DNA from: a virus
IMG/VR virus record: IMGVR_UViG_3300022752_000106
Location: 1-50,638 of that record
Reading direction: 5' to 3' (one strand)
DNA: 50,638 nucleotides
Of the stretch, positions 37,603 through 49,892 are shown in pieces (positions within the stretch are counted from its first letter, which is position 1; each line of letters starts with the position of its first letter). The translations under genes were made by a program, and so were the position numbers. Below the pieces are notes generated by a model. It did no database searches and was not told the origin of the DNA. It worked only from the letters and a program-made list of their open reading frames with translations.

Positions 37603-37800
37603 TGTAAATCTGTTTACGTCTTGTAATATACATATATATTTTGTCGACGCCAAGTATTTTTTAAAGAAGAAGGATTTGATTTTTAATATTTTTTATAAAA
37701 ATGGCCGATTTGGAAATTTGGGTTTTACTTTGGGGGATATATAAAGATATATGAGGTCGATGGTGTTAGGTTTTAAAGAGAAGAGATTTACTCTAAGTCC
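37603..37800. other. gene-free AT-rich spacer next to the repeat block
   Basis: The stretch next to the 58-aa gene holds a TATA-rich promoter-like region (about 37620-37645). Nothing else was recognised up to 37800; TTTGGGGGATATATAAAG near 37731 is the only odd composition. Confidence 0.5.
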
Positions 37801-37859
37801 ATGTCCTTCACCACCCCGCCATATATTGACCCCAACGCGCGTGGTACCCAGTACGTGAT

Positions 37860-39022
37860 ACTATATGCATACCATATATATACCGCCGTACGCCACCAGA
37901 CCCCCCTACAGGGTCATAGGGTCACAGGGTCACAAGGTCTCAAATCCACAGAACCGCAAGGTCACCAGATCACTGGGTCACTGGGTCATTGAGTCACTGG
38001 ATCACCAGAGTCACATGGTCACTGGGTTATCCAGGTCACTGGGATCATTGAGTCACCATCATCATATCTCCCCAATGTACCATTGTTAGGGTAACCAGGT
38101 ACCAGGGTTACCCAACTACCAGGGTTGCCAGGGTCACAGGGTACCCAGGTTACCAGGGTCACAGGTCACGGGTCACAGGGTACCCAAGCATCCAATCACC
38201 CAGATAACCAGGGTCACATGGTAACCAGGTACCCAGATTACCCAACCATCCAAGCATCCAGATTCTCAGGTTACGGGTTACCCAAGTAGCCAAGCATCCA
38301 GGTAACCAGGTAACCAAACACCAGGGTTACCATATCACCAGGGTCACCAGGTATCCAGGTACCCAAGTACCAGGATCACAGGGTTACTAGGGTAACCAAG
38401 TAGCCAAGCACCCGGGTCATAGGATCACCATATCACCAGATTACCAGGGTTACCCAACTACCAGGGTCACCAGGTAACCAGGTACCAGGGTCAACCAGGT
38501 TACCCAACTACCCAACCACCCAAATACCAGGGTACCAGGGTAACCAAGTATCCAGGTATCCAAGCATCCAGGTAACCAGGTACCAGGATTACCCCAAGCA
38601 TCCAGGTAACCAGGTACCCAAACACCAGGGTTACCCAAGTACCAGGTTACCCAACCATCCAACCACCCAGATCGCGGGTCACAGGATAACCAGGTATCCA
38701 GGTTACCAGGGTCACCCAACTACCAGGGTTACCATATCACCAGGGTCACCAGGTATCCAAGTACCCAGGTTACCATGGTTACCCAAGTACCAGGGTCACC
38801 AGGTAACCAGGTACCAGGGTCACGGGTCACCAGGGTTACCCAACTACCCAACCACCCAAGTATCCAGGTTCTCAGGTCATGGGTTACCCAACTAGCCAAA
38901 CACCAGGGTCACATGGTAACCAGATACCCAAGTACCAGGGTCACGGGTTACCAGGGTACCCAACTACCCAAGTATCCAGGTAACCAGGTTCTCAGATCAT
39001 TGGGTAACCAGGTAACCATGGT
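37860..39022. repeat. dense degenerate short repeats built on GGTNACC / CCAGGTA
   Basis: About 1.15 kb, GC-richer than all flanking DNA. The plus strand is a mosaic of 7-10 bp words: CCAGGTAACC, CCAGGTACC, CCAGGGTTACCC, CCAGGGTCACC and CCAAGCATCC. By hand I count about 36 copies of the palindrome GGTNACC and about a dozen of GGTACC, where chance predicts fewer than one. The left part (37900-38060) is dominated by GGGTCAC / GAGTCACTGG words, the rest by GGTAACC and GGTTACC. Spacing is not uniform, and open frames only reflect the repeats. Candidate roles: replication origin, packaging or recombination site, or a protein-binding array. Confidence 0.9.
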
Positions 39023-39023
39023 C

Positions 39024-39194
39024 TCACCACTTTGGATTATTGGTTTTTGATTTTACCAGCTCACCGTTCTCAAAATAATAGAACTCCAGCTTACCGTCTT
39101 CACGCTTTACGGTCACGTTGGCTTGGTCGGTTAAGCACCCATCAATATTTAGAATGCGTGTTTGGTTTAATCGGATAAATGTGTATGTGCTCAT
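39024..39194 (-). CDS. 56-aa early protein, first gene right of the repeat block
   Basis: ATG at 39194 opens MSTYTFIRLNQTRILNIDGC, then beta strands (VTVKREDGKLEFYYFENGEL) ending NPKW. The C-terminus overlaps the edge of the repeat block. No TTCGTATATT box is upstream, unlike most neighbours; a hairpin and TATAAT-like element (39217-39262) lies there. Function unknown. Confidence 0.6.
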   Translation of the reverse strand: MSTYTFIRLNQTRILNIDGCLTDQANVTVKREDGKLEFYYFENGELVKSKTNNPKW

Positions 39195-39221
39195 GTGTGT
39201 CTTTGTTTTACGCACCCCGAA

Positions 39222-39239
39222 AGCCCGATTGCTCGGGCT
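39222..39239 (-). terminator. hairpin between early genes
   Basis: Stem AGCCCGA / TCGGGCT, loop of 4, downstream of the gene at 39277-39534. The surrounding 46 bp are almost repeated at 39846-39902. No clear T-run follows on the minus strand, so a transcript-processing or cassette role is also possible. Confidence 0.55.
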
Positions 39240-39276
39240 ACAGGGCGTATAATTAAAAGATAAAATTGTTGCTTAT

Positions 39277-39534
39277 TTAAAAATCTTGGTCACATACCTC
39301 ATCATGTAAGTCAAGCATGTACTGGCGCTCCATCATCTCCTGCTTATAGGTCTTGGTCTTAAATACCTCAAATGGAGCAATTGGGTTATCGCTCTTGACT
39401 CTAACATAGTACTCATCCCATACCGCTCTAGCGTTATCAACCTCAATCAATATATGGCTTGGTTCTAGGTTTAGGGAGTATGTCTTAATTACTTTACCAC
39501 TTAAATCACTCACTGTAAAATCAACTTTAATCAT
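39277..39534 (-). CDS. 85-aa early protein, unknown
   Basis: ATG at 39534 opens MIKVDFTVSDLSGKVIKTYS; the rest alternates strands and helices and ends DLHDEVCDQDF. A TTG start three codons upstream would also be open, but the ATG sits at the usual distance (24 nt) from the promoter box. No family recognised. Confidence 0.6.
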   Translation of the reverse strand: MIKVDFTVSDLSGKVIKTYSLNLEPSHILIEVDNARAVWDEYYVRVKSDNPIAPFEVFKTKTYKQEMMERQYMLDLHDEVCDQDF

Positions 39535-39558: not shown

Positions 39559-39568
39559 AATATACGAA
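39559..39568 (-). promoter_or_regulatory. early-type promoter box TTCGTATATT
   Basis: 24 nt before the start at 39534; AGTGTATAA follows the box as in most copies. Confidence 0.6.
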
Positions 39569-39575
39569 CCTTACT

Positions 39576-39773
39576 TTACTTTTGGGTTTCTCTAATTGCT
39601 ACTAACAACCCAACTAAAACCAATAAACTCAATACCACCATCGCAAGTGTTACATTCAATGCAAACAATGCTACTACCAATGCCGCTGCTGAGAACATAT
39701 TAAAATCACCCCCCTTAAATAATATCGTTCCTAAAACATTCACTCCCAAAATAATTGCAATCGCTAACATCAT
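39576..39773 (-). CDS. 65-aa membrane protein
   Basis: Two hydrophobic segments (MMLAIAIILGVNVLGTILF, then FSAAALVVALFALNVTLAMV through VVLSLLVLVGLLVAIRE) and a short polar loop (KGGDFNM). Typical small early phage membrane protein; role unknown. Confidence 0.6.
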   Translation of the reverse strand: MMLAIAIILGVNVLGTILFKGGDFNMFSAAALVVALFALNVTLAMVVLSLLVLVGLLVAIRETQK

Positions 39774-39815
39774 AACCTTTAATTTTTAAATTTATCTTAT
39801 CTTATTTATACACCC

Positions 39816-39825
39816 AATATACGAA
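39816..39825 (-). promoter_or_regulatory. early-type promoter box TTCGTATATT
   Basis: 42 nt before the start at 39773, one of the longer spacings; GGGTGTATAA follows the box. Confidence 0.55.
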
Positions 39826-39859
39826 CCCATCTACCCAACCCATATTCCCAGACCCCAAA

Positions 39860-39877
39860 AGCCCGATTACTCGGGCT
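39860..39877 (-). terminator. hairpin between early genes
   Basis: Stem AGCCCGA / TCGGGCT, loop TTAC in plus orientation, between the AT-hook-like gene's stop and the promoter of the 65-aa gene; near-copy of the element at 39222-39239. Confidence 0.55.
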
Positions 39878-39904
39878 CACAGGTCGTATAATTAAAAAGA
39901 TAAC

Positions 39905-40237
39905 TTATCCGGCTATCTCATCGCCTTTAACTTGAACTGGTCTTCCACGCTTAACAGCTCCACCATTTAACTCAGCCTTAGCCTTCAACTCAGCTAATCG
40001 TAACTGCCTAGCACTATTTGGATTTACAGGACGTCCTTGACCTATACCTAATGCTTTATTTGCTGCTTGCATTTTCAAACGGAACTGACGTTCTGAATTC
40101 ACATTTACAGGGCGTCCACGTTTCAACTCACCATTTGCTTTTTTAGCCGCTAATTCTGCTAAGCGGATTTGTCTTGCACTATTAACATTAACTGGACGAC
40201 CTAATTGCTTTACTTCACTTGTTTCTACTTTTTTCAT
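39905..40237 (-). CDS. AT-hook-like repeat protein, 110 aa
   Basis: Four GRPV motifs (LGRPVNVNSARQIRLAEL, RGRPVNVNSERQFRLKMQ, QGRPVNPNSARQLRLAEL, RGRPVQVKG) at about residues 13, 41, 68 and 97 give a period of about 28 residues. GRP in a basic setting is the AT-hook core, which binds the minor groove of AT-rich DNA; each hook is followed by an Asn-Ser-x-Arg-Gln helix. A paralogue lies at 41732-42055. A nucleoid- or host-DNA-binding role is likely; the 'NSxRQ' extension is not standard. Confidence 0.7.
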   Translation of the reverse strand: MKKVETSEVKQLGRPVNVNSARQIRLAELAAKKANGELKRGRPVNVNSERQFRLKMQAANKALGIGQGRPVNPNSARQLRLAELKAKAELNGGAVKRGRPVQVKGDEIAG

Positions 40238-40267
40238 AACTTTATTTCTTTTTATTTTTATACACTC

Positions 40268-40277
40268 AATATACGAA
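40268..40277 (-). promoter_or_regulatory. early-type promoter box TTCGTATATT
   Basis: 30 nt before the AT-hook-like gene start at 40237; AGTGTATAAA follows. Confidence 0.6.
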
Positions 40278-40300
40278 CTATCTATTTACCTACTTATTCC

Positions 40301-40432
40301 TTAAACACTAAAATAACAAGTAGTCCCAATAGTAATACAATTATACACTATTAAACTAATTACTCCAATTACAAAACCAATTACTAAAATTTCTACTAAA
40401 TTACTTTTTACTAAACTTAAACTTTTTTTCAT
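40301..40432 (-). CDS. 43-aa membrane peptide
   Basis: ATG at 40432 opens MKKSLSLVKSNLVEILVIGF and a single span (VIGVISLIVY) leads to a Cys-containing end (NCITIGTTCYFSV). The stop TAA is followed directly by GGAATAA, the recurring end signature of this region. Confidence 0.55.
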   Translation of the reverse strand: MKKSLSLVKSNLVEILVIGFVIGVISLIVYNCITIGTTCYFSV

Positions 40433-40459
40433 AACTTTATTTTTTTTAATTATACACTC

Positions 40460-40469
40460 AATATACGAA
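40460..40469 (-). promoter_or_regulatory. early-type promoter box TTCGTATATT
   Basis: 27 nt before the start at 40432; GAGTGTATAAT follows, with a perfect TATAAT. Confidence 0.6.
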
Positions 40470-40495
40470 ATTTAATTTAACTTACTTATTCCTTT

Positions 40496-40576
40496 TTACT
40501 CATTAATTTTAATTTTTCTAATTTCTAAAATCAATAATACAATACCTAAAATAATAAAACCACCAAATATTAACAT
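40496..40576 (-). CDS. 26-aa membrane peptide
   Basis: ATG at 40576 opens MLIFGGFIILGIVLLILEIR and ends KIKINE. It is one membrane span plus a basic tail. It is short, but has its own promoter box at the normal distance and the AAAGGAATAAG signature after its stop, which supports it as a gene. Confidence 0.5.
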   Translation of the reverse strand: MLIFGGFIILGIVLLILEIRKIKINE

Positions 40577-40603
40577 AACTTATCTTTTTTTAATTATACA
40601 CTA

Positions 40604-40613
40604 AATATACAAA
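40604..40613 (-). promoter_or_regulatory. early-type promoter box, variant TTTGTATATT
   Basis: 27 nt before the 26-codon gene at 40576; TAGTGTATAAT follows. Confidence 0.5.
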
Positions 40614-40620
40614 AGTAACT

Positions 40621-40866
40621 TTAAATAGTTACTTCCTCAATTTCATATTCAAAAGTATCATATAATTTATCCTTTATATCTTCTAAACTAAATAAATTTA
40701 AATATTCATCTTTTTCTAAATCAGTATTACAATTATCCCAATCTATTTCATAATGTTTTTCCACTATAAATTTCTTACTTTCTTCTAAAGAATTAAACAC
40801 TTTAACTTTAACATCTCTTATTTTATAAGAGGAAGAATCTAAATCATAAATTTTAACTACAAACAT
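40621..40866 (-). CDS. 81-aa acidic early protein
   Basis: MFVVKIYDLDSSSYKIRDVK starts an alternating strand/helix protein with many Asp and Glu (DWDNCNTDLEKDEYLNLFSL). No family recognised. Acidic small early proteins often bind host enzymes, but nothing here proves that. Confidence 0.6.
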   Translation of the reverse strand: MFVVKIYDLDSSSYKIRDVKVKVFNSLEESKKFIVEKHYEIDWDNCNTDLEKDEYLNLFSLEDIKDKLYDTFEYEIEEVTI

Positions 40867-40892
40867 ATTTTTATTTTTTTAATTATACACTA

Positions 40893-40902
40893 AATATACA
40901 AA
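40893..40902 (-). promoter_or_regulatory. early-type promoter box, variant TTTGTATATT
   Basis: 26 nt before the start at 40866; TAGTGTATAAT follows. Confidence 0.5.
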
Positions 40903-40998
40903 CTATTTTTTATTAACTTTATTCCCTGATTTCATAATTAATTTCATTATTAACACTACATTTAATAATAAACTAAAATAAATTAAATCACCTATCAT
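40903..40998 (-). CDS. 31-aa membrane peptide
   Basis: ATG at 40998 opens MIGDLIYFSLLLNVVLIMKL and ends GNKVNKK: one span and a basic tail. A degraded promoter box lies upstream, inside the 3' end of the next gene (about 41018-41035), so transcription may be weak or read-through. Confidence 0.45.
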   Translation of the reverse strand: MIGDLIYFSLLLNVVLIMKLIMKSGNKVNKK

Positions 40999-41013
40999 AT
41001 TTTTATTTTTTAA

Positions 41014-41208
41014 TTATACATTTAATTTACTAAAACCTTTTATTATATCTACTTCCTTATCATCTAATCTAATAAACTTAAACTCAGTTTCCCCTTCAAA
41101 TACAACACTCCAATTTTTATCATCACCACCTTTTTTTCTAATTATACAACTTACTTTTTTACAAAATTTAATTTCAATTAAACTAATAACATTTTTTAAA
41201 TCAATCAT
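41014..41208 (-). CDS. 64-aa early protein
   Basis: MIDLKNVISLIEIKFCKKVS leads to beta strands (NWSVVFEGETEFKFIRLDDK). It has two cysteines and a basic centre (CIIRKKGGDDK). No family recognised. Its last codons overlap the degenerate promoter of the 31-aa gene. Confidence 0.55.
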   Translation of the reverse strand: MIDLKNVISLIEIKFCKKVSCIIRKKGGDDKNWSVVFEGETEFKFIRLDDKEVDIIKGFSKLNV

Positions 41209-41233
41209 TTTATTTCTTTTTAATTATACCATC

Positions 41234-41243
41234 AATATACAAA
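41234..41243 (-). promoter_or_regulatory. early-type promoter box, variant TTTGTATATT
   Basis: 25 nt before the start at 41208; GATGGTATAAT follows. Confidence 0.5.
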
Positions 41244-41266
41244 TTTCTTTTTAATTAAGTTATTCC

Positions 41267-41395
41267 TTAATTTAATCTAATTATACTATCTTCAAATCTA
41301 AACACTTCAGGTTTAAAGTAAAATTGTACAGTATTCATTTCCTGGATTAATAAAAATGCTCTTAATAACAATTCTTTTCTTTCTTTTTCACTCAT
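41267..41395 (-). CDS. 42-aa helical early protein
   Basis: ATG at 41395 opens MSEKERKELLLRAFLLIQEM, then NTVQFYFKPEVFRFEDSIIR and LN. The stop is part of TTAAGGAATAA. Not recognised. Confidence 0.55.
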   Translation of the reverse strand: MSEKERKELLLRAFLLIQEMNTVQFYFKPEVFRFEDSIIRLN

Positions 41396-41416
41396 TTTAT
41401 TTTCTTTTTATATCAT

Positions 41417-41426
41417 CAATATACGA
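41417..41426 (-). promoter_or_regulatory. early-type promoter box TTCGTATATT
   Basis: 21 nt before the start at 41395; the second element is degenerate (GATGATATAA). Confidence 0.55.
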
Positions 41427-41438
41427 AGGAGAAATGTA

Positions 41439-41648
41439 TTAAAACATTCCTCCACTTATTACAAATCTATATCTATACTGAATTTTATAACCATCTTCAC
41501 TATAAACTTCTTCACATACTTTTTCTCTTTCACACCATTCTAAATCATTATAATAAGTCCATCCATCAGGACCCGTCCCATGTATTCTAATTTGTAAATT
41601 CTTATTTTCTACTTTTTCTAACTCTTCAATCAATTCTTTTACTGTCAT
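41439..41648 (-). CDS. 69-aa early protein
   Basis: MTVKELIEELEKVENKNLQI then RIHGTGPDGWTYYNDLEWCE and C-terminal strands (KIQYRYRFVISGGMF). The 'MTVKELIEELEKx(D/N)(K/P)' opening followed by beta strands is common to small phage proteins sometimes grouped as immunity-like or unknown. Role open. Confidence 0.6.
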   Translation of the reverse strand: MTVKELIEELEKVENKNLQIRIHGTGPDGWTYYNDLEWCEREKVCEEVYSEDGYKIQYRYRFVISGGMF

Positions 41649-41673
41649 TTTCTATCTTTTTAATTATACAATC

Positions 41674-41683
41674 AATATACGAA
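41674..41683 (-). promoter_or_regulatory. early-type promoter box TTCGTATATT fused to a hairpin
   Basis: 25 nt before the start at 41648; TTGTATAATT follows. The box directly joins the hairpin at 41683-41704. Confidence 0.6.
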
Positions 41684-41704
41684 AGCCTCTTTAATAAGAG
41701 GCTT
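41683..41704 (-). terminator. hairpin directly upstream of a promoter box (stem-loop/promoter cassette)
   Basis: Stem AAGCCTCTT / AAGAGGCTT, loop of 4. On the minus strand it ends the gene at 41732 and the promoter of the next gene begins at its last base. Confidence 0.7.
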
Positions 41705-41731
41705 CCTTTGATGATGATTATTATTTTATTC

Positions 41732-42055
41732 CTAAGCAGCTATTTCATTATTATCTTTTTTAGGTCGTCCTCTTTTAACTAAACCTAACTTTCTCTTACT
41801 CTCTAACTCTTTTAGTCTTTTCTGTCTTTCACTATTTTCATTTACAGGACGTCCTTTTTTCAACTCTCCATTTTTTCTTTTATTTTCTAACTCACTAATC
41901 CTCTTTTGTCTTTCACTATTTTCATTTACAGGTCGTCCTCTTTTTAACAATCCTAACTCTCTTTTACTCTCTAATTCTTTAATCCTTTGTTGTCTTACAC
42001 TGTTTTCATTTACAGGACGTCCTAATTTTTTTACTTCATTTTTCATAACTTTCAT
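41732..42055 (-). CDS. AT-hook-like repeat protein, 107 aa (paralogue)
   Basis: Four GRPV/GRPK motifs again (LGRPVNENSVRQQRIKELES, RGRPVNENSERQKRISELEN, KGRPVNENSERQKRLKELES, RGRPKKDNNEI) with a period near 28 residues, aligning fully with the 39905-40237 product; the units within this copy are more alike than those of the paralogue. The protein is very basic (pI clearly high from Lys/Arg content). It should bind AT-rich DNA. Duplicated early DNA-binding proteins may coat phage DNA or disturb the host nucleoid. Confidence 0.7.
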   Translation of the reverse strand: MKVMKNEVKKLGRPVNENSVRQQRIKELESKRELGLLKRGRPVNENSERQKRISELENKRKNGELKKGRPVNENSERQKRLKELESKRKLGLVKRGRPKKDNNEIAA

Positions 42056-42083
42056 TTTTTTATTTCTTTTTAATTATACAATC

Positions 42084-42093
42084 AATATACGAA
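42084..42093 (-). promoter_or_regulatory. early-type promoter box TTCGTATATT
   Basis: 28 nt before the AT-hook-like gene start at 42055; TTGTATAATT follows. Confidence 0.6.
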
Positions 42094-42109
42094 TTTTGTT
42101 TTATAATTT

Positions 42110-42325
42110 TTATTCCTTAGGTAATTTACTTACTAAAGTCACAAACACAGTATCACAATCAATATCACTATTCATTTCAGTAAGTGTGATTTCAAAATCA
42201 GTATTCTGAATTAAACTATTCACTTGATTAATAATGTTTTTCATTTTTACTTTATAGTCTTCAATATTATCATTTATATCAATATCAAACAACGTTTCAT
42301 TAACTAATTCATTTACATTTTTCAT
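42110..42325 (-). CDS. 71-aa acidic early protein
   Basis: MKNVNELVNETLFDIDINDN, then helix and strands with Asp-rich stretches and the end VSKLPKE, whose last codons form AAGGAATAA with the stop. Not recognised. Confidence 0.55.
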   Translation of the reverse strand: MKNVNELVNETLFDIDINDNIEDYKVKMKNIINQVNSLIQNTDFEITLTEMNSDIDCDTVFVTLVSKLPKE

Positions 42326-42350
42326 TTTTTATCTTTTTAATTATACAATC

Positions 42351-42360
42351 AATATACGAA
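42351..42360 (-). promoter_or_regulatory. early-type promoter box TTCGTATATT
   Basis: 25 nt before the start at 42325; TTGTATAATT follows. It touches the stop of the next gene (42361). Confidence 0.6.
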
Positions 42361-42480
42361 TTAATCTTCAATAAACTTATTCCTATGTTTATCTTTTCTA
42401 GTATACTTTTTTCTATTCCTGTATATGTTAGGACGTGTTGCTTGATTTATCTCTTCCTGAGTAACAATTATTGTTTTCAT
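42361..42480 (-). CDS. 39-aa basic early protein
   Basis: ATG at 42480 opens MKTIIVTQEEINQATRPNIY, followed by RNRKKYTRKDKHRNKFIED. Longer starts (42498 and 42594) are open, but the box TTCGTATATT at 42503-42512 would fall inside or too close to them, so 42480 is chosen. The Arg/Lys-rich C-terminus suggests nucleic acid binding. Confidence 0.5.
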   Translation of the reverse strand: MKTIIVTQEEINQATRPNIYRNRKKYTRKDKHRNKFIED

Positions 42481-42502
42481 TTCATTTTCTTTTTTCATTT
42501 TC

Positions 42503-42512
42503 AATATACGAA
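42503..42512 (-). promoter_or_regulatory. early-type promoter box TTCGTATATT
   Basis: 22 nt before the start at 42480; no second TATAA element follows. Confidence 0.5.
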
Positions 42513-42514
42513 AA

Positions 42515-43152
42515 ATGTTTGATGAAAAATATTCCTTAAGCAGTATGATAGCCTGCAATTTCCTTGCAAGCTTTTTTTGTTGATTTCCTGACAATGAACA
42601 TCCGTGACGATTTCCGTGTTTTGTAGGTCCTGGGGATACTTTTGTGCCCTTAACGCTGTTGCTATCCGTTACCCGTTTCCATGACGAAGAACATCATTTT
42701 GTTCCCGTATACATATGTGAAAGATATGAAAGGTAATTCAGGTTTCCAACTATTTTTTACTATTTTTTACCCCCCTTTCCCCCGTTTTTCACGTAGGGGG
42801 ACGGGGGGTTCACGTTTTTTGTATATACTTTTGGAAAGGTTTAAAAAAGACGTGGACGATGAAGGGGGGGGTTAGACACACCGTTTTTTCACACCCTCCA
42901 TTGTAAAACACACTTGTCACATACTATATGATAATTTTCGTTTTGTTGATGATTATCATTGATGATTTGCATTCCCTATGTTGATGTTCATTCCACACAT
43001 GGGTTCAACATTGACGATTCCTATTTGCGATTATCTGTTGGTGATGTTCATTTTTGACGAATTCCATTGACAATGTTCGTTCGCGTTTTTTACACGTTGA
43101 TTTTCGTTTTTTTGATGATGATCATTGACGATATTCATTGGTGATTTCCATT
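42515..43152. other. gene-free block with G/C runs, hairpin and degenerate GATGATT/TTCATT words
   Basis: About 640 bp with no believable gene. 42751-42770 holds two copies of TATTTTTTAC; 42770-42808 holds C6TTTC5 facing G5ACG6, a long GC hairpin; 42863-42871 holds a run of G. From about 42950 to 43150 the plus strand repeats words such as TTGATGATTATCATTGATG, GATGTTCATT, TTGACGATT and GATGATCATTGACGA in varied form, giving local inverted repeats (ATGATTATCAT). It is the second unusual non-coding block and may be an origin or regulatory site. Confidence 0.7.
42770..42808. other. long GC hairpin C6-TTT-C5 / G5-AC-G6
   Basis: An 11-bp G:C stem with a small internal mismatch and a 12-nt loop (GTTTTTCACGTA), in a genome otherwise near 30% GC. 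It could also form G-quadruplex-type structures on one strand. Confidence 0.7.
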
Positions 43153-43308
43153 TTAATATCCAATCAATTCATTCAGGTATTCTCCTGTCAATTTTCCATT
43201 TCGTGTTATTTCATAATTCGGATCCATTCCTACTTGTTCCACATAGTATATTAATTTTTCTATTGAACTGAACTCCTCTACAAAATAATCACAATCTAAA
43301 CTATACAT
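43153..43308 (-). CDS. 51-aa early protein
   Basis: ATG at 43308 opens MYSLDCDYFVEEFSSIEKLI, then YYVEQVGMDPNYEITRNGKL and TGEYLNELIGY. The strand-helix-strand pattern ('xYExxxNGKxTGEyLxELI') recalls small phage proteins of unknown role. Confidence 0.6.
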   Translation of the reverse strand: MYSLDCDYFVEEFSSIEKLIYYVEQVGMDPNYEITRNGKLTGEYLNELIGY

Positions 43309-43335
43309 CTTTTTCTTTCTTTTTATTATACACTG

Positions 43336-43345
43336 AATATACGAT
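43336..43345 (-). promoter_or_regulatory. early-type promoter box, variant ATCGTATATT
   Basis: 27 nt before the start at 43308; CAGTGTATAAT follows. Confidence 0.5.
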
Positions 43346-43361
43346 CTCTATTTTATGTTTT

Positions 43362-43583
43362 TTAGTCCTCTTTTGGTAAAGAAACATTATCAACAAATTC
43401 ACATACTTCATCAAATAATGCTGCGTCATCAATTGAATATCCTGATTTGCTTCGTAATTCACAATCTATAAGTTTACCTGAATCGTTTAACCATTCTTTA
43501 TAGATTAGTACTCCTTCTGTTGGGTGTTGAAGGATAAAAACATTTTCTGTTACTTGTTGTGATGTTTGATTTAAAATTTCCAT
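43362..43583 (-). CDS. 73-aa early protein
   Basis: MEILNQTSQQVTENVFILQH, strands VLIYKEWLNDSGKLIDCELR, and an acidic helix ending DNVSLPKED. The end is GAGGAC + TAA, a variant of the recurring stop signature. Not recognised. Confidence 0.55.
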   Translation of the reverse strand: MEILNQTSQQVTENVFILQHPTEGVLIYKEWLNDSGKLIDCELRSKSGYSIDDAALFDEVCEFVDNVSLPKED

Positions 43584-43609
43584 TTTTTCTTTTTTTTATT
43601 TATACATTT

Positions 43610-43619
43610 AATATACGAA
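43610..43619 (-). promoter_or_regulatory. early-type promoter box TTCGTATATT
   Basis: 26 nt before the start at 43583; AAATGTATAA follows. Confidence 0.6.
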
Positions 43620-43644
43620 ATCTTTTTTATATCTCTTATTCCTT

Positions 43645-43941
43645 TTATCTACTTTTTACTGATTCAATTACTGATGTACCTGAGTTAATCATTGCTATAA
43701 CTTCATCCCACCCTTCTTCATCTGCGGCCCATTCAATTTCATGTTTTTCATTTTTCATTTGCCAATTTGATACTGCATATCCCATTCCATCTAATTTAAA
43801 ATCTCCATTATCATTTTTTCTAAATCTTAAATGTCCAACATTATCACACATACATGATACTGTTTTGAATATTACTTCTCTTGCTCCTCCTTTAATAGCT
43901 AGTTTTGGTTGGTTTCTTCTTAATTCTACATACTTACTCAT
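43645..43941 (-). CDS. 98-aa early protein
   Basis: MSKYVELRRNQPKLAIKGGA, then VIFKTVSCMCDNVGHLRFRK with a CxC pair, DGDFKLD-like strands and an acidic WAADEEGWDEVIAMINSGTS end. No family recognised. Confidence 0.55.
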   Translation of the reverse strand: MSKYVELRRNQPKLAIKGGAREVIFKTVSCMCDNVGHLRFRKNDNGDFKLDGMGYAVSNWQMKNEKHEIEWAADEEGWDEVIAMINSGTSVIESVKSR

Positions 43942-43969
43942 AACCTTTATTTTTTTAATTTATACATTT

Positions 43970-43979
43970 AATATACGAA
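43970..43979 (-). promoter_or_regulatory. early-type promoter box TTCGTATATT
   Basis: 28 nt before the start at 43941; AAATGTATAA follows. Confidence 0.6.
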
Positions 43980-43995
43980 AGATATTTTAATAAAC

Positions 43996-44214
43996 TTAGT
44001 CCTCTATTTCAATCCATTCTTTGAAAAGAAAACTAACAGAACCATTCCCAAATTGAACTTGAATAATATCATCATCAACATTATCATCCACAATGTCTAC
44101 CTCAAATACTTCACCTTGTAATACTTTCTCCTCTTCCATTATTGGTTCTTCATCAAGATCAAATCCAATACAACACTCAATAAATCGTTCTTCTAAAAAT
44201 TTAATTTTACTCAT
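43996..44214 (-). CDS. 72-aa highly acidic early protein
   Basis: MSKIKFLEERFIECCIGFDL, then long Asp/Glu/Val stretches (EVDIVDDNVDDDIIQVQFGN) and FKEWIEIED. Strong net negative charge, reminiscent of DNA-mimic or enzyme-inhibitor early proteins, but no specific similarity was seen. The end is GAGGAC + TAA. Confidence 0.55.
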   Translation of the reverse strand: MSKIKFLEERFIECCIGFDLDEEPIMEEEKVLQGEVFEVDIVDDNVDDDIIQVQFGNGSVSFLFKEWIEIED

Positions 44215-44235
44215 GTCTTTTTTTTAATTTATTGT

Positions 44236-44245
44236 AATATACGAA
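44236..44245 (-). promoter_or_regulatory. early-type promoter box TTCGTATATT fused to a hairpin
   Basis: 21 nt before the start at 44214; joined directly to the hairpin at 44245-44266. No second TATAA element follows. Confidence 0.55.
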
Positions 44246-44266
44246 AGCCCTCTTAATTGAGGGCTT
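44245..44266 (-). terminator. hairpin directly upstream of a promoter box
   Basis: Stem AAGCCCTC / GAGGGCTT, loop TTAATT; located just after the stop of the gene at 44272. Confidence 0.7.
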
Positions 44267-44271
44267 CCTTT

Positions 44272-44607
44272 TTAAATTTTATCTTTAAACATCAATATCA
44301 ATTTATCTTCAAGTCCTGAATCTCTTAGGTTTTTTTCTTCTTCATCAATCAACTTATCTAAATCAATACCTAAATCTTTTAATTGTGATTTGAATTGTTT
44401 ATATCTTTCATAGCTTGAATCAACATCAATTCCTAAAAACTTAATATCTTTAACATCAATACCTATTTCTAAATCAGCACTAACACTACCATCTTTACAT
44501 TCATAAATGAATGCTTGGTGGTGTAATGTCATTTCAATTGCATCATTGTTTCCTAATTTTACTTCTGTTTCGAATCCAACCATTAATGTTTTGCTTGTAA
44601 TTTTCAT
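44272..44607 (-). CDS. 111-aa early protein
   Basis: Beta-strand N-terminus (TLMVGFETEVKLGNNDAIEM, HHQAFIYECKDGSVSADLEI) and helical C-terminus (KQFKSQLKDLGIDLDKLIDE). The alternating strands might form a barrel; no family recognised. Confidence 0.55.
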   Translation of the reverse strand: MKITSKTLMVGFETEVKLGNNDAIEMTLHHQAFIYECKDGSVSADLEIGIDVKDIKFLGIDVDSSYERYKQFKSQLKDLGIDLDKLIDEEEKNLRDSGLEDKLILMFKDKI

Positions 44608-44655
44608 AACTTTTTCTTTTTTTTAATTTAATTTATTTTCTCTTTTCTTACTTTC

Positions 44656-44665
44656 AATATACGAA
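44656..44665 (-). promoter_or_regulatory. early-type promoter box TTCGTATATT
   Basis: 48 nt before the start at 44607, the longest spacing in the series; no clear second element. Confidence 0.5.
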
Positions 44666-44688
44666 ATCTTTTTTATATCTTTTATTCC

Positions 44689-44922
44689 TTAATTTGCTCT
44701 TATTACTAAATTTAAAGGTATATCAAAACCATCCGGATCAATAACAGGTACAAATTCATTTTCATCTTCATCAAACACATATTCAATATCTAACCAATCT
44801 GTAACATCACAATCTTCAACATTCATTACTAATTTTGCTTGTGTTCCACAATCTGAGAGTATAATACCATAACCACAACAATTTGAATAGGTATAATAAC
44901 CGTGAATTTTTTCTTTTAACAT
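44689..44922 (-). CDS. 77-aa acidic early protein
   Basis: MLKEKIHGYYTYSNCCGYGI, then ILSDCGTQAKLVMNVEDCDV and DEDENEFVPVIDPDGFDIPL. Four cysteines (CC, C, C) may bind a metal. Not recognised. Confidence 0.55.
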   Translation of the reverse strand: MLKEKIHGYYTYSNCCGYGIILSDCGTQAKLVMNVEDCDVTDWLDIEYVFDEDENEFVPVIDPDGFDIPLNLVIRAN

Positions 44923-44943
44923 ATTTTCTTTTTTATTTACTTC

Positions 44944-44953
44944 AATATACGAA
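44944..44953 (-). promoter_or_regulatory. early-type promoter box TTCGTATATT
   Basis: 21 nt before the start at 44922; no second element. Confidence 0.55.
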
Positions 44954-44969
44954 ATCTCTTTTATATCTT

Positions 44970-45125
44970 TTAGTCCTCTAATTCTTCAATAACACTTTTT
45001 ATTGTTCCTTGTAAATAACCAATAATATAAGCATATTCTTCACTTTTAGTAGTAAACATTTTATCAGTATCAATGATAGATTTTTTTAATAGTTCTACTA
45101 ATCTTTTTTTTTCTTTTTTTGTCAT
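44970..45125 (-). CDS. 51-aa helical early protein
   Basis: ATG at 45125 opens MTKKEKKRLVELLKKSIIDT, then MFTTKSEEYAYIIGYLQGTI and KSVIEELED. Its second half resembles the 46599-46832 product (IIGYLQGTIKSVIEEL against TVGFLQGSINGTISFL), so the two are probably paralogues. The end is GAGGAC + TAA. Confidence 0.6.
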   Translation of the reverse strand: MTKKEKKRLVELLKKSIIDTDKMFTTKSEEYAYIIGYLQGTIKSVIEELED

Positions 45126-45143
45126 ATCTTTTTATTTGAATGA

Positions 45144-45153
45144 AATATACGAA
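45144..45153 (-). promoter_or_regulatory. early-type promoter box TTCGTATATT
   Basis: 18 nt before the start at 45125; no second element. Confidence 0.55.
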
Positions 45154-45169
45154 ATCTTTTTTATATCTT

Positions 45170-45637
45170 TTATTCCTCTACTTTAATTGCAAAATATATT
45201 TTTACTCTCAAATGGTTTCCGTCACTTGCATTTCCAACAACAACACCATCAATCACTGAAAATGCATGACCTTTCTTGATGACGAGGTATTTTCCTTTAG
45301 GGTATTTTTCAATAAACATTGACAATGTTATGTTTGTTGGTTTACCACCATTCTTTTGATGTCTTGCTGAACCTGGATACATTAGGTTTTCTTTTGGTAT
45401 AACTGAATATGGAATACCTTTGATATTATCCATCCATGAACTAAGTTTCAATGCAGTATTGAATGTGCCTTTTCGTGGTTGTCTTTTTAATTTATCTGCT
45501 GCAAACTTATGTGCAACGTCATATTCTAATCCAAATGTTGAAGCGATTGCTCTAACTACACAATCGTTATTTTCACCTTTAGCAATTGCACTTTCGTTGT
45601 ATCCAACAATGTGATCTGCTGAACAAATACTTTTCAT
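45170..45637 (-). CDS. papain-like fold protein, possible cysteine peptidase
   Basis: The 155-aa product starts MKSICSADHIVGYNESA. GENNDCVVRAIASTFGLEYD (about 21-40) sets a cysteine at the head of a long helix, and YPKGKYLVIKKGHAFSVIDG (about 113-132) puts a histidine at a strand start, as in papain-like (C39/NlpC-type) proteins; NASDGNHLRV could supply the third residue. Such Cys...His proteins are seen in phages of varied hosts. The ATG at 45637 is preferred over one five codons upstream because of promoter spacing (23 nt). Activity is inferred from the motif order. Confidence 0.6.
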   Translation of the reverse strand: MKSICSADHIVGYNESAIAKGENNDCVVRAIASTFGLEYDVAHKFAADKLKRQPRKGTFNTALKLSSWMDNIKGIPYSVIPKENLMYPGSARHQKNGGKPTNITLSMFIEKYPKGKYLVIKKGHAFSVIDGVVVGNASDGNHLRVKIYFAIKVEE

Positions 45638-45660
45638 AACCTTTCTTTTCAATTTACTGA

Positions 45661-45670
45661 AATATACGAA
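45661..45670 (-). promoter_or_regulatory. early-type promoter box TTCGTATATT fused to a hairpin
   Basis: 23 nt before the start at 45637; joined to the hairpin at 45670-45691. Confidence 0.55.
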
Positions 45671-45691
45671 AGCCCTCTTGATTGAGGGCTT
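45670..45691 (-). terminator. hairpin directly upstream of a promoter box
   Basis: Stem AAGCCCTC / GAGGGCTT, loop TTGATT, between the stop at 45717 and the next promoter. Confidence 0.7.
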
Positions 45692-45716
45692 CCTTTATTA
45701 AATTTCTATTTTACTA

Positions 45717-46100
45717 TTACAATCCTAATCCTTCATTGATTGATTGTATTACTTCTGATTCACTCGGTCCACATTCATCATCTTCTTCAACAATAAATTC
45801 ATCTAAACATGCTGTAATATGATCCATTGTTTCACTAACGTTAATACTTGCATCATCTATTTCAATTACATTTCCATATGTAATGCTAAATGTAACATCA
45901 TCCTTATCAACTAAATCACTTGCATTATAGTCTAGGGTTCGTTCAATTCTATCTGCAATTTCCTCTGCTAATTCTTGAGTGAGTCCTGCTTTTGTTCCGG
46001 ATTCAATTTGATTTATCAATGCTATTACTTTATCAATATCAACTTGTGATGATAATACTTTTGCTGCTTCTAACTGTTTTACTAATTCTTCTTTTTTCAT
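45717..46100 (-). CDS. 127-aa acidic early protein
   Basis: MKKEELVKQLEAAKVLSSQV, helical through LTQELAEEIADRIERTLDYN, then strands FSITYGNVIEIDDASIN and an acidic end FIVEEDDECGPSESEVIQSI. No family recognised. Confidence 0.55.
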   Translation of the reverse strand: MKKEELVKQLEAAKVLSSQVDIDKVIALINQIESGTKAGLTQELAEEIADRIERTLDYNASDLVDKDDVTFSITYGNVIEIDDASINVSETMDHITACLDEFIVEEDDECGPSESEVIQSINEGLGL

Positions 46101-46131
46101 AACTTTTATTTTTTTCTTTTTTATTTACTTT

Positions 46132-46141
46132 AATATACGAA
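46132..46141 (-). promoter_or_regulatory. early-type promoter box TTCGTATATT
   Basis: 31 nt before the start at 46100. Beyond it, AGGGCTTCC remains of a hairpin right arm whose partner arm is gone, a decayed form of the stem-loop cassettes. Confidence 0.55.
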
Positions 46142-46165
46142 ATCTATTTTAATTAAGGGCTTCCT

Positions 46166-46585
46166 TTATCTATCTTCAGTTGAAAATCCTGCTGAATCTA
46201 CTTTAGGTCCATTATCGATTATCATTTCAACTTTAATTTCACCATCTACAAAACGACTCAATTGTACTGTTTCAATTTTATCATCTTTTTCACATTCTGT
46301 TTTCAATTCATTTAACTGTTCTTCATTTTCTAATGCACCACAAATATAACCAGGTGAATCATAAAATCGAATTCGATATGAACCGTATGGATTTTTTAGT
46401 TCTTTGATTTCAAAATCATCTTCAGTTAATTCATTTAGTTTTTTATCTCCATCAATAATAGTTGCTGAATAATGGTAACCACAACTATTACAATTCACGT
46501 ATTCTTCTCCTGTTTTGTAGTAGAAATCATTGTATGCTTCTTGTCCACAATTTGGACACTCAATATAATCAATTACGCTTCCCAT
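46166..46585 (-). CDS. 139-aa zinc-ribbon early protein
   Basis: CPNCGQEAYNDFYYKTGEEY then VNCNSCGYHYSATI (cysteines at about 10, 13, 32 and 35) is a compact zinc ribbon. Beta strands follow (GSYRIRFYDSPGYICGALEN). No promoter box precedes it; the gene upstream ends 13 nt away, so it is co-transcribed. Likely nucleic acid or RNA-polymerase contact, but not recognised. Confidence 0.65.
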   Translation of the reverse strand: MGSVIDYIECPNCGQEAYNDFYYKTGEEYVNCNSCGYHYSATIIDGDKKLNELTEDDFEIKELKNPYGSYRIRFYDSPGYICGALENEEQLNELKTECEKDDKIETVQLSRFVDGEIKVEMIIDNGPKVDSAGFSTEDR

Positions 46586-46598
46586 TTTATTTTATTTT

Positions 46599-46832
46599 TT
46601 AAATTCCTAAATCTTTTTTAACAAAGTCCTCATCTTCTAATCGTTCTATAATCGCTAATGCTTCTTCATTTGCTAATTGTTCTTTTAGAAACGAAATAGT
46701 ACCATTGATCGAACCCTGCAAGAAACCAACTGTTCGAGCTAAATGTATATCTGGGTTGTTGAACATTTCATCTGATTCTTTTACTACTTTTTGTAGTTCT
46801 TCTATTACTACTTCAATTATTGCATTTTTCAT
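46599..46832 (-). CDS. 77-aa helical early protein
   Basis: MKNAIIEVVIEELQKVVKES, then ARTVGFLQGSINGTISFLKE and EALAIIERLEDEDFVKKDLG. Partly similar to the 44970-45125 product. It leads a two-gene unit with the zinc-ribbon protein. Confidence 0.6.
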   Translation of the reverse strand: MKNAIIEVVIEELQKVVKESDEMFNNPDIHLARTVGFLQGSINGTISFLKEQLANEEALAIIERLEDEDFVKKDLGI

Positions 46833-46856
46833 ATTTTTTTCTTTTTAATTTATTGT

Positions 46857-46866
46857 AATATACGAA
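46857..46866 (-). promoter_or_regulatory. early-type promoter box TTCGTATATT
   Basis: 24 nt before the start at 46832; no second element. Confidence 0.55.
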
Positions 46867-46882
46867 ATTTCTTTTAATAAGC

Positions 46883-47257
46883 TTATTCCTCTAATTTTTC
46901 TTTTAATATCTCTACATTGCTAGAATAATATTCATTCACTAACCAAACACCATCTCTATTTAAACAATAGATATATTCTACTCCACTTTCCCAACCTAAT
47001 TCAAATAAATGTTCAACTTTTAAATAACTAGTTGAATGTAAATCTTCACCTCTATCACGACAATATGCTACTGTATCTTCAGTTGATTCTCCTAATGAAC
47101 TGATATCTCCTAGTTCAATTAGTTTTTGTAATTTTTCTTTATCGTAGTGGTTGAATAATGTTTTACCTACACCATCAACATAACCATCAAAATGACAGTA
47201 AATTGAATTTACTATACCTGATTCGTTTTCAATTGCTATTCTACTTCTTGTACTCAT
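46883..47257 (-). CDS. conserved phage protein, MSTRSxI family
   Basis: The 124-aa product starts MSTRSRIAIENESGIVNSIY and continues CHFDGYVDGVGKTLFNHYDK then LIELGDISSLGESTED. This 'MSTRSxIxIxNxxG...CHFDGYxxGVGxxL' pattern is widespread in unrelated phages and plasmids with unknown function. A longer frame (from 47356) is open but includes the promoter region, so the internal ATG is used. The end GAGGAATAA is the recurring stop signature. Confidence 0.75.
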   Translation of the reverse strand: MSTRSRIAIENESGIVNSIYCHFDGYVDGVGKTLFNHYDKEKLQKLIELGDISSLGESTEDTVAYCRDRGEDLHSTSYLKVEHLFELGWESGVEYIYCLNRDGVWLVNEYYSSNVEILKEKLEE

Positions 47258-47278
47258 ATTTTCTTTTTTTATACACTC

Positions 47279-47288
47279 AATATATGAA
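47279..47288 (-). promoter_or_regulatory. early-type promoter box, variant TTCATATATT
   Basis: About 21 nt before the start at 47257; GAGTGTATAA follows. Confidence 0.5.
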
Positions 47289-47300
47289 ATTTCTTTTAAA

Positions 47301-47513
47301 TTATCTATTCCTTTTAAATAATAATTTCTCAACAGCTTCCATAATTTGGGTTTCATATTCTCTCTTCATTACTTCCTTAGGATAACCTTCAGGTAAATCA
47401 TCTAAATTATCTAATTGCCAATCTAAAAATTGTTCAATATCAAAATAATCCCAATCATCACTGATTCCGAGTAAACAATCTGCTGCCCATTCTATTTTTT
47501 CTGCTTTTTTCAT
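47301..47513 (-). CDS. 70-aa acidic early protein
   Basis: MKKAEKIEWAADCLLGISDD then WDYFDIEQFLDWQLDNLDDL and a Lys/Glu helix (KREYETQIMEAVEKLL). The 10-codon extension upstream is A/T-rich leader, so 47513 is preferred. Not recognised. Confidence 0.6.
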   Translation of the reverse strand: MKKAEKIEWAADCLLGISDDWDYFDIEQFLDWQLDNLDDLPEGYPKEVMKREYETQIMEAVEKLLFKRNR

Positions 47514-47545
47514 AACTTTCTTTTTCTTTCTTTTTTTATACACTC

Positions 47546-47555
47546 AATATACGAA
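47546..47555 (-). promoter_or_regulatory. early-type promoter box TTCGTATATT
   Basis: 32 nt before the start at 47513; GAGTGTATAA follows. Confidence 0.6.
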
Positions 47556-47571
47556 ATTTTTTTTAATAAGC

Positions 47572-47856
47572 TTATTCCTCTGTTGTAAAAAGTTCAATAA
47601 TAAAATTATCATCACTTTCAATAGCAGTGTCTTCTAATGCTATAAACACTTCTCTCAGTGTAGTTGCTTCTTCAATTGATGATATTTTTTCTTTCCAATC
47701 TCGTTCAAATCGACGAAACGATTCTACTTCAAATTCGATATCATCCATATCACTTAGTTCCTTAATGTACTGGAGTGAATATCCATATGAACAATCAAAT
47801 TCAGTGTCCATCCACTCTAGCAATTGTTTTTTTCCTCTTTCAAAATTAAATTTCAT
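47572..47856 (-). CDS. 94-aa acidic early protein
   Basis: MKFNFERGKKQLLEWMDTEF, then LQYIKELSDMDDIEFEVESF and a helical, acidic end (EDTAIESDDNFIIELFTTEE) whose final codons form GAGGAATAA with the stop. It starts 4 nt inside the upstream gene's end, so it is translated with it. Confidence 0.6.
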   Translation of the reverse strand: MKFNFERGKKQLLEWMDTEFDCSYGYSLQYIKELSDMDDIEFEVESFRRFERDWKEKISSIEEATTLREVFIALEDTAIESDDNFIIELFTTEE

Positions 47857-48056
47857 AATCCTAAATCTTTACGTTCTTCAATTAAATACTCTACTTGTTC
47901 AATTGGCATTGTTAACATTAATTGTCTTAACATTTGCCAATCCATTCCTACTTCTTTTAAAATGTGTTGCATTGTTTCACCATCCACTTCTATATCTTTG
48001 AGTACATCAATTATTAATTTAACTCTTTGTGGATTTTCTTTCATTTTTTCTGTCAT
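47853..48056 (-). CDS. 67-aa helical early protein
   Basis: MTEKMKENPQRVKLIIDVLK, then VDGETMQHILKEVGMDWQML and RQLMLTMPIEQVEYLIEERK. Helix-turn-helix-like spacing is possible but not convincing. The start at 48056 follows the AAAAGTT leader; the longer frame overlaps the gene upstream. Confidence 0.55.
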   Translation of the reverse strand: MTEKMKENPQRVKLIIDVLKDIEVDGETMQHILKEVGMDWQMLRQLMLTMPIEQVEYLIEERKDLGL

Positions 48057-48061
48057 AACTT

Positions 48062-48292
48062 TTATTTTAATTGTGCTGTTTCCATTAACAAATTGATAAT
48101 AATTTCGCATGATTCTTTTACATTGTATCCATGATTTACATAAAATTCAATGATGTCATTTATATCATCACACATATTGATTTCATCTTTAATTCCATCT
48201 ATGTACATTTTTGGATCTTCATGTTGAACTTGTTCAATGAATTCAATTTCATTTTCAATAATTAATTCCTTCAATTCTCTTAATTTTATCAT
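48062..48292 (-). CDS. 76-aa acidic helical early protein
   Basis: MIKLRELKELIIENEIEFIE, then EDPKMYIDGIKDEINMCDDI and SCEIIINLLMETAQLK. It lies 5 nt before the 67-aa gene and 12 nt after the 92-aa gene in a run of four genes served by one promoter box at 48607. Not recognised. Confidence 0.6.
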   Translation of the reverse strand: MIKLRELKELIIENEIEFIEQVQHEDPKMYIDGIKDEINMCDDINDIIEFYVNHGYNVKESCEIIINLLMETAQLK

Positions 48293-48304
48293 AACTTTTA
48301 TTTT

Positions 48305-48583
48305 TTACCAATGATTACCATTATTTCTTGATGGGTTTTGAGCAAATGCTTCCTTACACATCTGTTCTACATTGCTATCTTTAAATGAACCCCATGGAAA
48401 TATACCTTCATATGTACCATATTGGTAACCTACCAAGTTTACCTTTACAATCTCTCTTAATACTTCCATTTCCTCATCAGTTTCAGCTATTTGTCTTGCT
48501 GATATTGTTCGTAATTGACCATATCTATCACAACCGCTTGTTCTGTAATGTTTAACTAATTTTTCTACTAACATTTCTTTCAT
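48305..48583 (-). CDS. 92-aa early protein
   Basis: MKEMLVEKLVKHYRTSGCDR, then YGQLRTISARQIAETDEEME and GTYEGIFPWGSFKDSNVEQM ending NPSRNNGNHW. First gene of a four-gene unit. No family recognised. Confidence 0.6.
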   Translation of the reverse strand: MKEMLVEKLVKHYRTSGCDRYGQLRTISARQIAETDEEMEVLREIVKVNLVGYQYGTYEGIFPWGSFKDSNVEQMCKEAFAQNPSRNNGNHW

Positions 48584-48606
48584 AACTTTCTCTTTTTCTT
48601 ACTTGA

Positions 48607-48616
48607 AATATACGAA
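48607..48616 (-). promoter_or_regulatory. early-type promoter box TTCGTATATT fused to a hairpin
   Basis: 23 nt before the start at 48583; joined directly to the hairpin at 48616-48637; serves four closely spaced genes. Confidence 0.6.
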
Positions 48617-48637
48617 AGCCCTCTTAATTGAGGGCTT
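48616..48637 (-). terminator. hairpin directly upstream of a promoter box
   Basis: Stem AAGCCCTC / GAGGGCTT, loop TTAATT, 6 nt after the stop of the 251-aa gene; the same stem as at 44245-44266. Confidence 0.7.
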
Positions 48638-48643
48638 CCTTTT

Positions 48644-49399
48644 TTATTGATTGTTAAACCTTTCTAACAATTCCTCTGTAGGAAGTTTATCAAGTTCAGC
48701 ATCAAACTTTTTGTATAAATGTTCTACGCCATTGTAAGTATCTAATTCAAATTGAACATAACTACCTGATTTGAATTTAACTTCAACTATTTTAAATGAA
48801 CCTTTATACTTAGTATAACCTTCTTTACTTGTCACTTCAGCATCTGGGTAGAGTTTTGTGTATTTTTCAATGGTGTTTTTTTCTAAATTTTCTTTTTGTT
48901 TAAATTCCTTGAATTGATTTGCTGCTTTTTCATTATGTAGTTTTAATTTTTCAAGTATTGTTTTTGGTTTATAGAAACGATATTGTTCTGTAATTGAACC
49001 ACATTGGATTTTATCTTTTTCTACATCAAACCAGAATTTGGCAGGTTTAAGTTTTTTATCTGTTTCCCATATGTAAAAATTCTGCCCCAACAAATATATT
49101 TGTGAATCACATTTTTCATATTCAATTTCAGTTTCAAATGCTGTATTGTTGTAGCTATAACCTAATGTTGTATTACGGGTTTCAACAGTTACTTTACAAC
49201 TTTGTTCAAAATGAACACCCTCAACAAAATCATTTTCAAGTAATAATTCTACAATTTGTTTGTGTCTGTTTTGAGCATACTCTGAACTTTTCTTTTGAGT
49301 TTTAATGTATTTATTTACTTGTTCTTGTTGTTCAGTTGTCAATAATATACCTGCAAATAAATCTAATTGAACGCCAATGTTTGATTTTCTTTTTTCCAT
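48644..49399 (-). CDS. 251-aa early protein, unknown
   Basis: The largest protein of the early cluster. MEKRKSNIGVQLDLFAGILL (the QLDLF may bind the host sliding clamp), then beta strands (CKVTVETRNTTLGYSYNNTA), a Lys/Glu helical zone (about 160-190) and a beta C-terminus (GSFKIVEVKFKSGSYVQFEL). The QLDLF motif at about residues 11-15 matches the beta-clamp consensus QL(S/D)LF exactly, which may point to a replication-related role; no domain was recognised. Confidence 0.6.
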   Translation of the reverse strand: MEKRKSNIGVQLDLFAGILLTTEQQEQVNKYIKTQKKSSEYAQNRHKQIVELLLENDFVEGVHFEQSCKVTVETRNTTLGYSYNNTAFETEIEYEKCDSQIYLLGQNFYIWETDKKLKPAKFWFDVEKDKIQCGSITEQYRFYKPKTILEKLKLHNEKAANQFKEFKQKENLEKNTIEKYTKLYPDAEVTSKEGYTKYKGSFKIVEVKFKSGSYVQFELDTYNGVEHLYKKFDAELDKLPTEELLERFNNQ

Positions 49400-49427
49400 A
49401 ACTTTTATTTTTTTAATTTATACACTT

Positions 49428-49437
49428 AATATACGAA
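49428..49437 (-). promoter_or_regulatory. early-type promoter box TTCGTATATT
   Basis: 28 nt before the start at 49399; AAGTGTATAA follows. Confidence 0.6.
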
Positions 49438-49460
49438 ATCTCTTTTACAATCTCTATTCC

Positions 49461-49865
49461 TTAGTTTATACTTGAATCCCAACTTGTTACTATAAAGTCT
49501 AATTGCAATCCTGTAATTTTTGTTTTACTTTCATTGCAAAATGCTTTAGCTTCAAAACCACCACAAGCATTTATAATTGCTACATCGTGATGAGTATCTT
49601 TAAAATCATCTAATCTACTTGCAGCAGCACCTCGCAATAAACGTTCTGCTTCTTCTCTTAAATCATAGATGGTAGGTGTTTCACCTTGCCATTTCCAATC
49701 TAAAGCATCCATAGCACGTTCTACTACATCAAAATCAAATTCATCCATGATATTTTTAATCATATATTCAAGATCCTTCACTACGGGTTTTGGCGGTTTA
49801 AGTGCTTTATTGATTAAGTCTCGTAGGTTTAGTAACTCATCTCTGTCTAAATTTTCTAAATTCAT
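49461..49865 (-). CDS. 134-aa conserved phage protein, unknown
   Basis: Helical N-terminus (LDRDELLNLRDLINKALKPP), then ERAMDALDWKWQGETPTIYD and a C-terminal GGFEAKAFCNESKTKITGLQ LDFIVTSWDS part. The 'LDWxW...PTIxDLxxEAxxLL' and 'GGFEA...LxLxFIV' motifs are familiar from many phages without a known function. Confidence 0.65.
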   Translation of the reverse strand: MNLENLDRDELLNLRDLINKALKPPKPVVKDLEYMIKNIMDEFDFDVVERAMDALDWKWQGETPTIYDLREEAERLLRGAAASRLDDFKDTHHDVAIINACGGFEAKAFCNESKTKITGLQLDFIVTSWDSSIN

Positions 49866-49882
49866 TTTCTTAATTTTATTGG

Positions 49883-49892
49883 AATATACGAA
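49883..49892 (-). promoter_or_regulatory. early-type promoter box TTCGTATATT
   Basis: 17 nt before the start at 49865, the shortest spacing; no second element. Confidence 0.5.

Follow-up and report, generated by a model that had tools for sequence, protein, structure and literature searches.

Hypervariable tandem repeats lying beside replication control sequences are known from vertebrate mitochondrial control regions, for which a pause-melting misalignment model has been put forward (PMC3599147). Intergenic repeats of a heptamer have been described in bacteria, with the units GGGAATC in Xanthomonas and GGGGA(T/C)T in Nostoc (PMC4692102). Here we describe a phage locus in which an array of a degenerate octamer is confined to one spacer, in one orientation, with a wording that changes from relative to relative. 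The collections and open-access literature searched yielded no description of a phage element whose octamer array is locked in position and orientation and changes its dialect, and blastn against annotated phages and plasmids did not retrieve any similar array. We lean towards reading the array as a hypervariable VNTR of an 8-nt unit, produced by slippage and exchange, dispensable, and lying beside a candidate control element.

Genomic context of the array

The window (the whole stretch of DNA analysed, 50,638 nt) is a linear 50.6-kb virus record from a metagenomic contig, and is part of a large phage with a contractile tail, as indicated by a baseplate wedge protein. The nearest cultured relative found was Flavobacterium phage immuto (vB_FspM_immuto, NC_055915): two proteins were compared and showed 43–52% identity, and the gene order T5orf172-phosphohydrolase-baseplate is common to both. 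Related contigs reach 166 kb (G001, probably complete, with a 127-bp end overlap) and 173.8 kb (G002).

All genes near the array are oriented leftwards. Leftward of the array lie a conserved noncoding element (Table 1), followed by small genes, the genes for T5orf172 and phosphohydrolase, and those of the baseplate, while a block of small early-type genes lies rightward, "early" and "late" being labels assigned from the gene layout. This layout agrees with the sequence-only reading that preceded our analysis, which had placed the array between late and early gene blocks. The same reading had described an early region with one promoter per gene; indeed, 23 minus-strand copies of CGTATATT lie right of 39000, against one left of 37600, with a site before most genes. 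The array itself occupies the spacer that is bounded by the conserved element on one side and, on the other, by the stop codon of the 56-aa gene that closes the early block.

Table 1. Coordinates of the features at the array locus (positions in the window)
Feature	Position	Strand	Remarks
Single-copy conserved noncoding DNA element	37603..37908	-	≈300 bp; candidate origin or late-control region
Promoter-like element end, TTGGCGTCGAC ... TATATATGTATATT	37620..37662	-	Putative, from sequence; reads towards late genes
Degenerate octamer minisatellite	37909..39022	+	CAGGGT polar on plus strand; dialect here GGTNACC/CCAGG
Left GGTCAC-rich array part	37909..38110	+	Homologous to arrays of L008, L052/L072, partly L064
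56-aa gene, last of early block	39024..39194	-	Stop codon at array edge; no Pfam match
Early block	39559..49890	-	≈23 promoter-like sites AGGAATAA-N17-TTCGTATATT; most small genes preceded by one

Several further features were observed rightward of the array. The early promoter-like sites and the promoter-like end of the conserved noncoding element have different upstream halves. A hairpin, AGCCCGA-N4-TCGGGCT, at 39205–39245, upstream of small early genes and with similar copies in related loci, is perhaps a terminator. Two paralogous proteins (39905–40237 and 41732–42055) carry KRGRPVNxNSxRQxRLxEL-like repeats with an AT-hook-like RGRP and have weak Pfam matches only; the gene at 41732–42055 sits on an 84-bp tandem repeat, and genes similar to this pair are also found in array-free relatives. 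GC skew is very strong at 40001–42000 (-0.55 to -0.62), and the early block is mosaic over 39040–46000, with patches of 95–98% identity beside stretches that are missing or 70–80% identical in relatives.

Extent, composition and periodicity

The array is about 1.1 kb long, with a GC content of 52.6% in 38001–39000 compared with ≈29% elsewhere in the window, in accordance with the abrupt GC-rich repeat block in an AT-rich genome that had been noticed by eye. It had been given the span 37860–39022, which holds from 37909 onwards, the first 49 bases (37860–37908) being part of the conserved flanking element. Exact counts within 37860–39022 were 36 for GGTNACC and 11 for GGTACC, close to the hand counts of about 36 and about a dozen, and only 6 and 2 copies, respectively, were found in the rest of the window, so that these words are not spread evenly over it. 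For the whole window, 42 GGTNACC were observed against 4.35 ± 2.23 (maximum 13) in whole-window shuffles; the octamer array is real and beyond chance. The reported drift from GGGTCAC-type words on the left to GGTAACC/GGTTACC-type words on the right is visible in the sequence, and the plus strand is poor in T (17.5%), as had been noted.

Autocorrelation within the array reached 0.54 for a lag of 8 and 0.45 for a lag of 16, with ≈0.26 predicted from composition alone, and over 37908–38968 TRF returned many overlapping arrays with periods of 8, 16, 41, 49, 58 and 67, including higher-order duplications of 41–67 bp. The units are thus arranged head-to-tail with a constant short period, combined with larger composites, as in a VNTR or minisatellite; the unit is degenerate and its spacing varies between 7 and 9 nt. 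No open frame runs through the array: since the 8-nt period rotates the frame and the overlying ORFs are short and lie on both strands, the array looks noncoding.

Presence, length and wording in relatives

Arrays were found at the same locus in about ten related contigs (L008, L012, L015/L040, L052, L055, L064, L067, L072/L002 and L149). Their length was 1117 bp in the window, 673 bp in L064, 633 bp in L067, 526 bp in L008, 451 bp in L072, 424 bp in L012 and 312 bp in L015; those of L052 and L055 run into contig ends, and L055 carries near-perfect 71-bp repeats. Among the 41 relatives readable beside the element (loci with more than 250 bp past it), about 9 carry 0.25–0.67 kb of array, 5 carry 40–120 bp and 27 have none (L004, L011, L029, L046 and others being array-free), the tally being of contigs and not of independent lineages, with the near-duplicates L015/L040 and L028/L029. 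The automatic count had been 7 long, 5 short and 30 without array among the 41 loci, its long and short counts spanning all 53 loci with the element; manual reading moved L008 and L064, both cut short by the gap rule, to the long class and added L120 to the short one, and L055, whose contig stops too early, was excluded. Unit number therefore differs between close relatives, as expected of a VNTR, from no array to 1.1 kb.

In all 12 related loci carrying them, dense array words adjoin the element in a single orientation, and no dense cluster was found elsewhere in the related loci scanned. Long array-free relatives have scattered words only (≈4–23 CAGGGT or AGGGTC per strand, with mild strand bias). 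One pattern match, in L003, was a chance 18-mer in an unrelated contig.

The wording of the repeat changes between arrays. The GGTNACC/CCAGG dialect of the window is replaced by GGTCTC/CATACCTC in L067 and L149, by GGGTCTCCAGG in L012 and by CCATCCATCCAGACC in L064, and GGTNACC has only 2–7 copies in the arrays of L012, L015, L064 and L067. On the contrary, CAGGGT (7–27 copies) and AGGGTC (9–17 copies) are the words most evenly common to the six arrays compared, with 0–1 copies in reverse orientation. GGTNACC is thus no more than a dialect of the window phage, and what all arrays have in common is the strand-polar pair CAGGGT and AGGGTC. This argues against a binding array centred on GGTNACC as a general feature, and against a target array for a methylase or restriction enzyme recognising GGTNACC, both of which had been proposed from the window. 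In a non-exhaustive search, neither a methylase nor a restriction enzyme connected with the array was noticed. The left 200 bp of the array are recognisably homologous among the window, L008 and L052/L072.

Turnover at the locus was directly visible in L004, which is 92–98% identical to the window over several kb on either side of the array and in which 37891–39040 is replaced by ≈26 bp of an unrelated spacer, of a type also present in L011, L029 and L035. L011 is 95% identical to the window in the right flank (39040–39570) and 75% in the left one, indicating that the array spot is also a mosaic boundary. In a tree of the element, arrays are scattered and have array-free sisters; with ≈300 bp as its basis and evident recombination, the tree does not tell how many gains and losses there were. 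The spacer replacement, the flank contrast and the scattered distribution together point to frequent gain, loss or exchange.

The conserved noncoding element

The adjoining element could be aligned among 31–35 relatives, with 66–96% identity to the window, many invariant blocks and a promoter-like end. A scan of 99 related loci detected it in 53, fragments making up many of the remainder, and it occurs in one copy in each of the three sequences searched (the window and two long relatives). A conserved RNA in the flank was rejected on account of a weak fold (a consensus energy of -2.9 kcal/mol for 31 sequences and a single-sequence z of -1.2), the lack of convincing covariation and an Rfam search that returned no family; the element thus probably acts as DNA. 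GC skew did not change sign at the element in either of two long relatives, and so lends no support to an origin there.

The array had also been suspected to be an origin, a packaging site or a recombination site. An obligatory site of this kind inside the array is unlikely, since close relatives have no array; if there is a control site of this sort, it may rather be the adjoining conserved element, which is probably an origin or a late-control region. A single-copy 300-bp noncoding DNA that may be the replication origin or the late switch of a large uncultured phage family merits attention more than the array itself.

Origin of the array and rival explanations

According to the VNTR reading, the array would derive from a short CCAGGGTCA-like seed that grows and shrinks by strand slippage, an expansion already suspected from the window and supported by the present results, and homologous exchange between the conserved flanks would swap array alleles. 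The instability would be located here because replication would start or pause, or recombination occur, at the adjoining element. The array itself would be dispensable, possibly with little or no function of its own. Two observations speak for more than a by-product: CAGGGT and AGGGTC keep strict polarity in arrays whose other words changed, so that selection for a binding or recombination site is possible, and the partial homology that the left part of the array shows between deeply separated lineages makes maintenance rather than neutral drift possible.

The main rival, owing to these polar shared words, is a functional binding array, which we regard as possible though rather unlikely. Oriented CCAGGGTC[A/T]C units would bind a phage or host protein working with the conserved element, as an iteron-like origin enhancer or by titration of a regulator, and the dialects would track the specificity of the protein. 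Besides the even presence of CAGGGT and AGGGTC in six arrays and the position of the array next to a conserved single-copy element, this explanation can draw on the PLE satellites of Vibrio cholerae, a precedent for origin iterons that change with their initiator (PMC8263062). However, polarity and shared words are undecisive, since head-to-tail arrays inherited from a common ancestor would show both; the unit is degenerate and irregularly spaced, a covarying gene was not found among the related contigs, which are fragments, and about two thirds of the readable relatives, including the near-identical L004, have no array. A binding array, if real, must therefore be accessory, and an iteron origin is not matched by the absence of the repeats from both G001 and G002. 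A more elaborate version, in which the oriented units form an accessory, dialect-switching binding or recombination array cooperating with a new type of phage origin or late-control element, and are lost and regrown in the course of an arms race against a factor, from the host or from a satellite, that recognises them, is in our opinion decidedly unlikely.

Growth driven by hairpins, with the GGTNACC palindromes folding in single-stranded DNA, appears improbable: 1000 nt of the window array fold well beyond dinucleotide shuffles (z of -10.2 and -8.6 for the two strands), but stretches of up to 400 nt show a small excess in the window (-1.6 and -2.6) and none in L008, L064 and L067. Moreover, sharing of reverse-complement words is at shuffle level in the window, L008, L067, L012 and L064 and clearly above it only in L072 and L015, and the palindromes belong to a local dialect and not to all arrays, so that hairpins as a general cause are unsupported across dialects. 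Known Chi sites are short fixed words. Chi-like octamers, read in one orientation by host RecBCD or AddAB and protecting phage DNA or steering recombination at the early/late boundary, would account for the octamer-sized word with strict polarity and for the mosaic breakpoint at the array; since the array words are degenerate, and long array-free relatives carry only few of them, with mild strand bias, we hold this to be very improbable. That the array is an assembly artefact or a chimera is hardly credible: the window is itself a linear contig from a metagenome, and some related contigs stop close to the locus, but the search in related phage contigs retrieved, from independent assemblies of several other metagenomes, arrays that adjoin the same element with the same orientation, several of which show recognisable homology. 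Contig ends were not clearly more numerous here than in neighbouring stretches (8 of 30 end within 350 bp, and neighbouring stretches lose contigs similarly), and a pile-up of ends was thus rejected as a sign of hidden arrays. The alleles from 0 to 1.1 kb constitute a natural series for studying the birth of tandem repeats in phage.

Comparison with known systems

In the 160-kb genome of immuto, neither a match to the element nor an array was detected. Short CCAGGTAACCAGGTAACC runs occur in unrelated bacteria (L126, L140 (Anaerophaga), L134, L138 (Anaerolineales), L133 and L143), those of L133, L134, L138 and L143 being apparently noncoding; they have the same octamer wording as the phage array, but consist of few units, do not reach 1 kb and belong to unrelated organisms, and are probably due to convergent slippage. 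Some of them adjoin other 7–8-nt repeats, such as ATCAATT.

Like the origins of PLE satellites, the phage locus has fast-evolving direct repeats in a noncoding region; the PLE origins, however, have three ≈30-bp repeats bound by RepA (PMC8263062), whereas the phage array is often absent and has no linked initiator. The heptamer arrays of Xanthomonas and Nostoc are also short-unit and intergenic, lie mostly between the same genes in relatives and vary much in length and sequence, but they are many per chromosome and quadruplex-forming, whereas the phage array is found at a single locus and has no such unit. Compared with the repeats of mitochondrial control regions, the array differs in belonging to a phage genome, in its highly degenerate 8-nt unit and in having beside it an origin or pause site that is only a candidate; both are hypervariable, fixed in place and adjacent to elements controlling replication or transcription, in the phage a candidate one.
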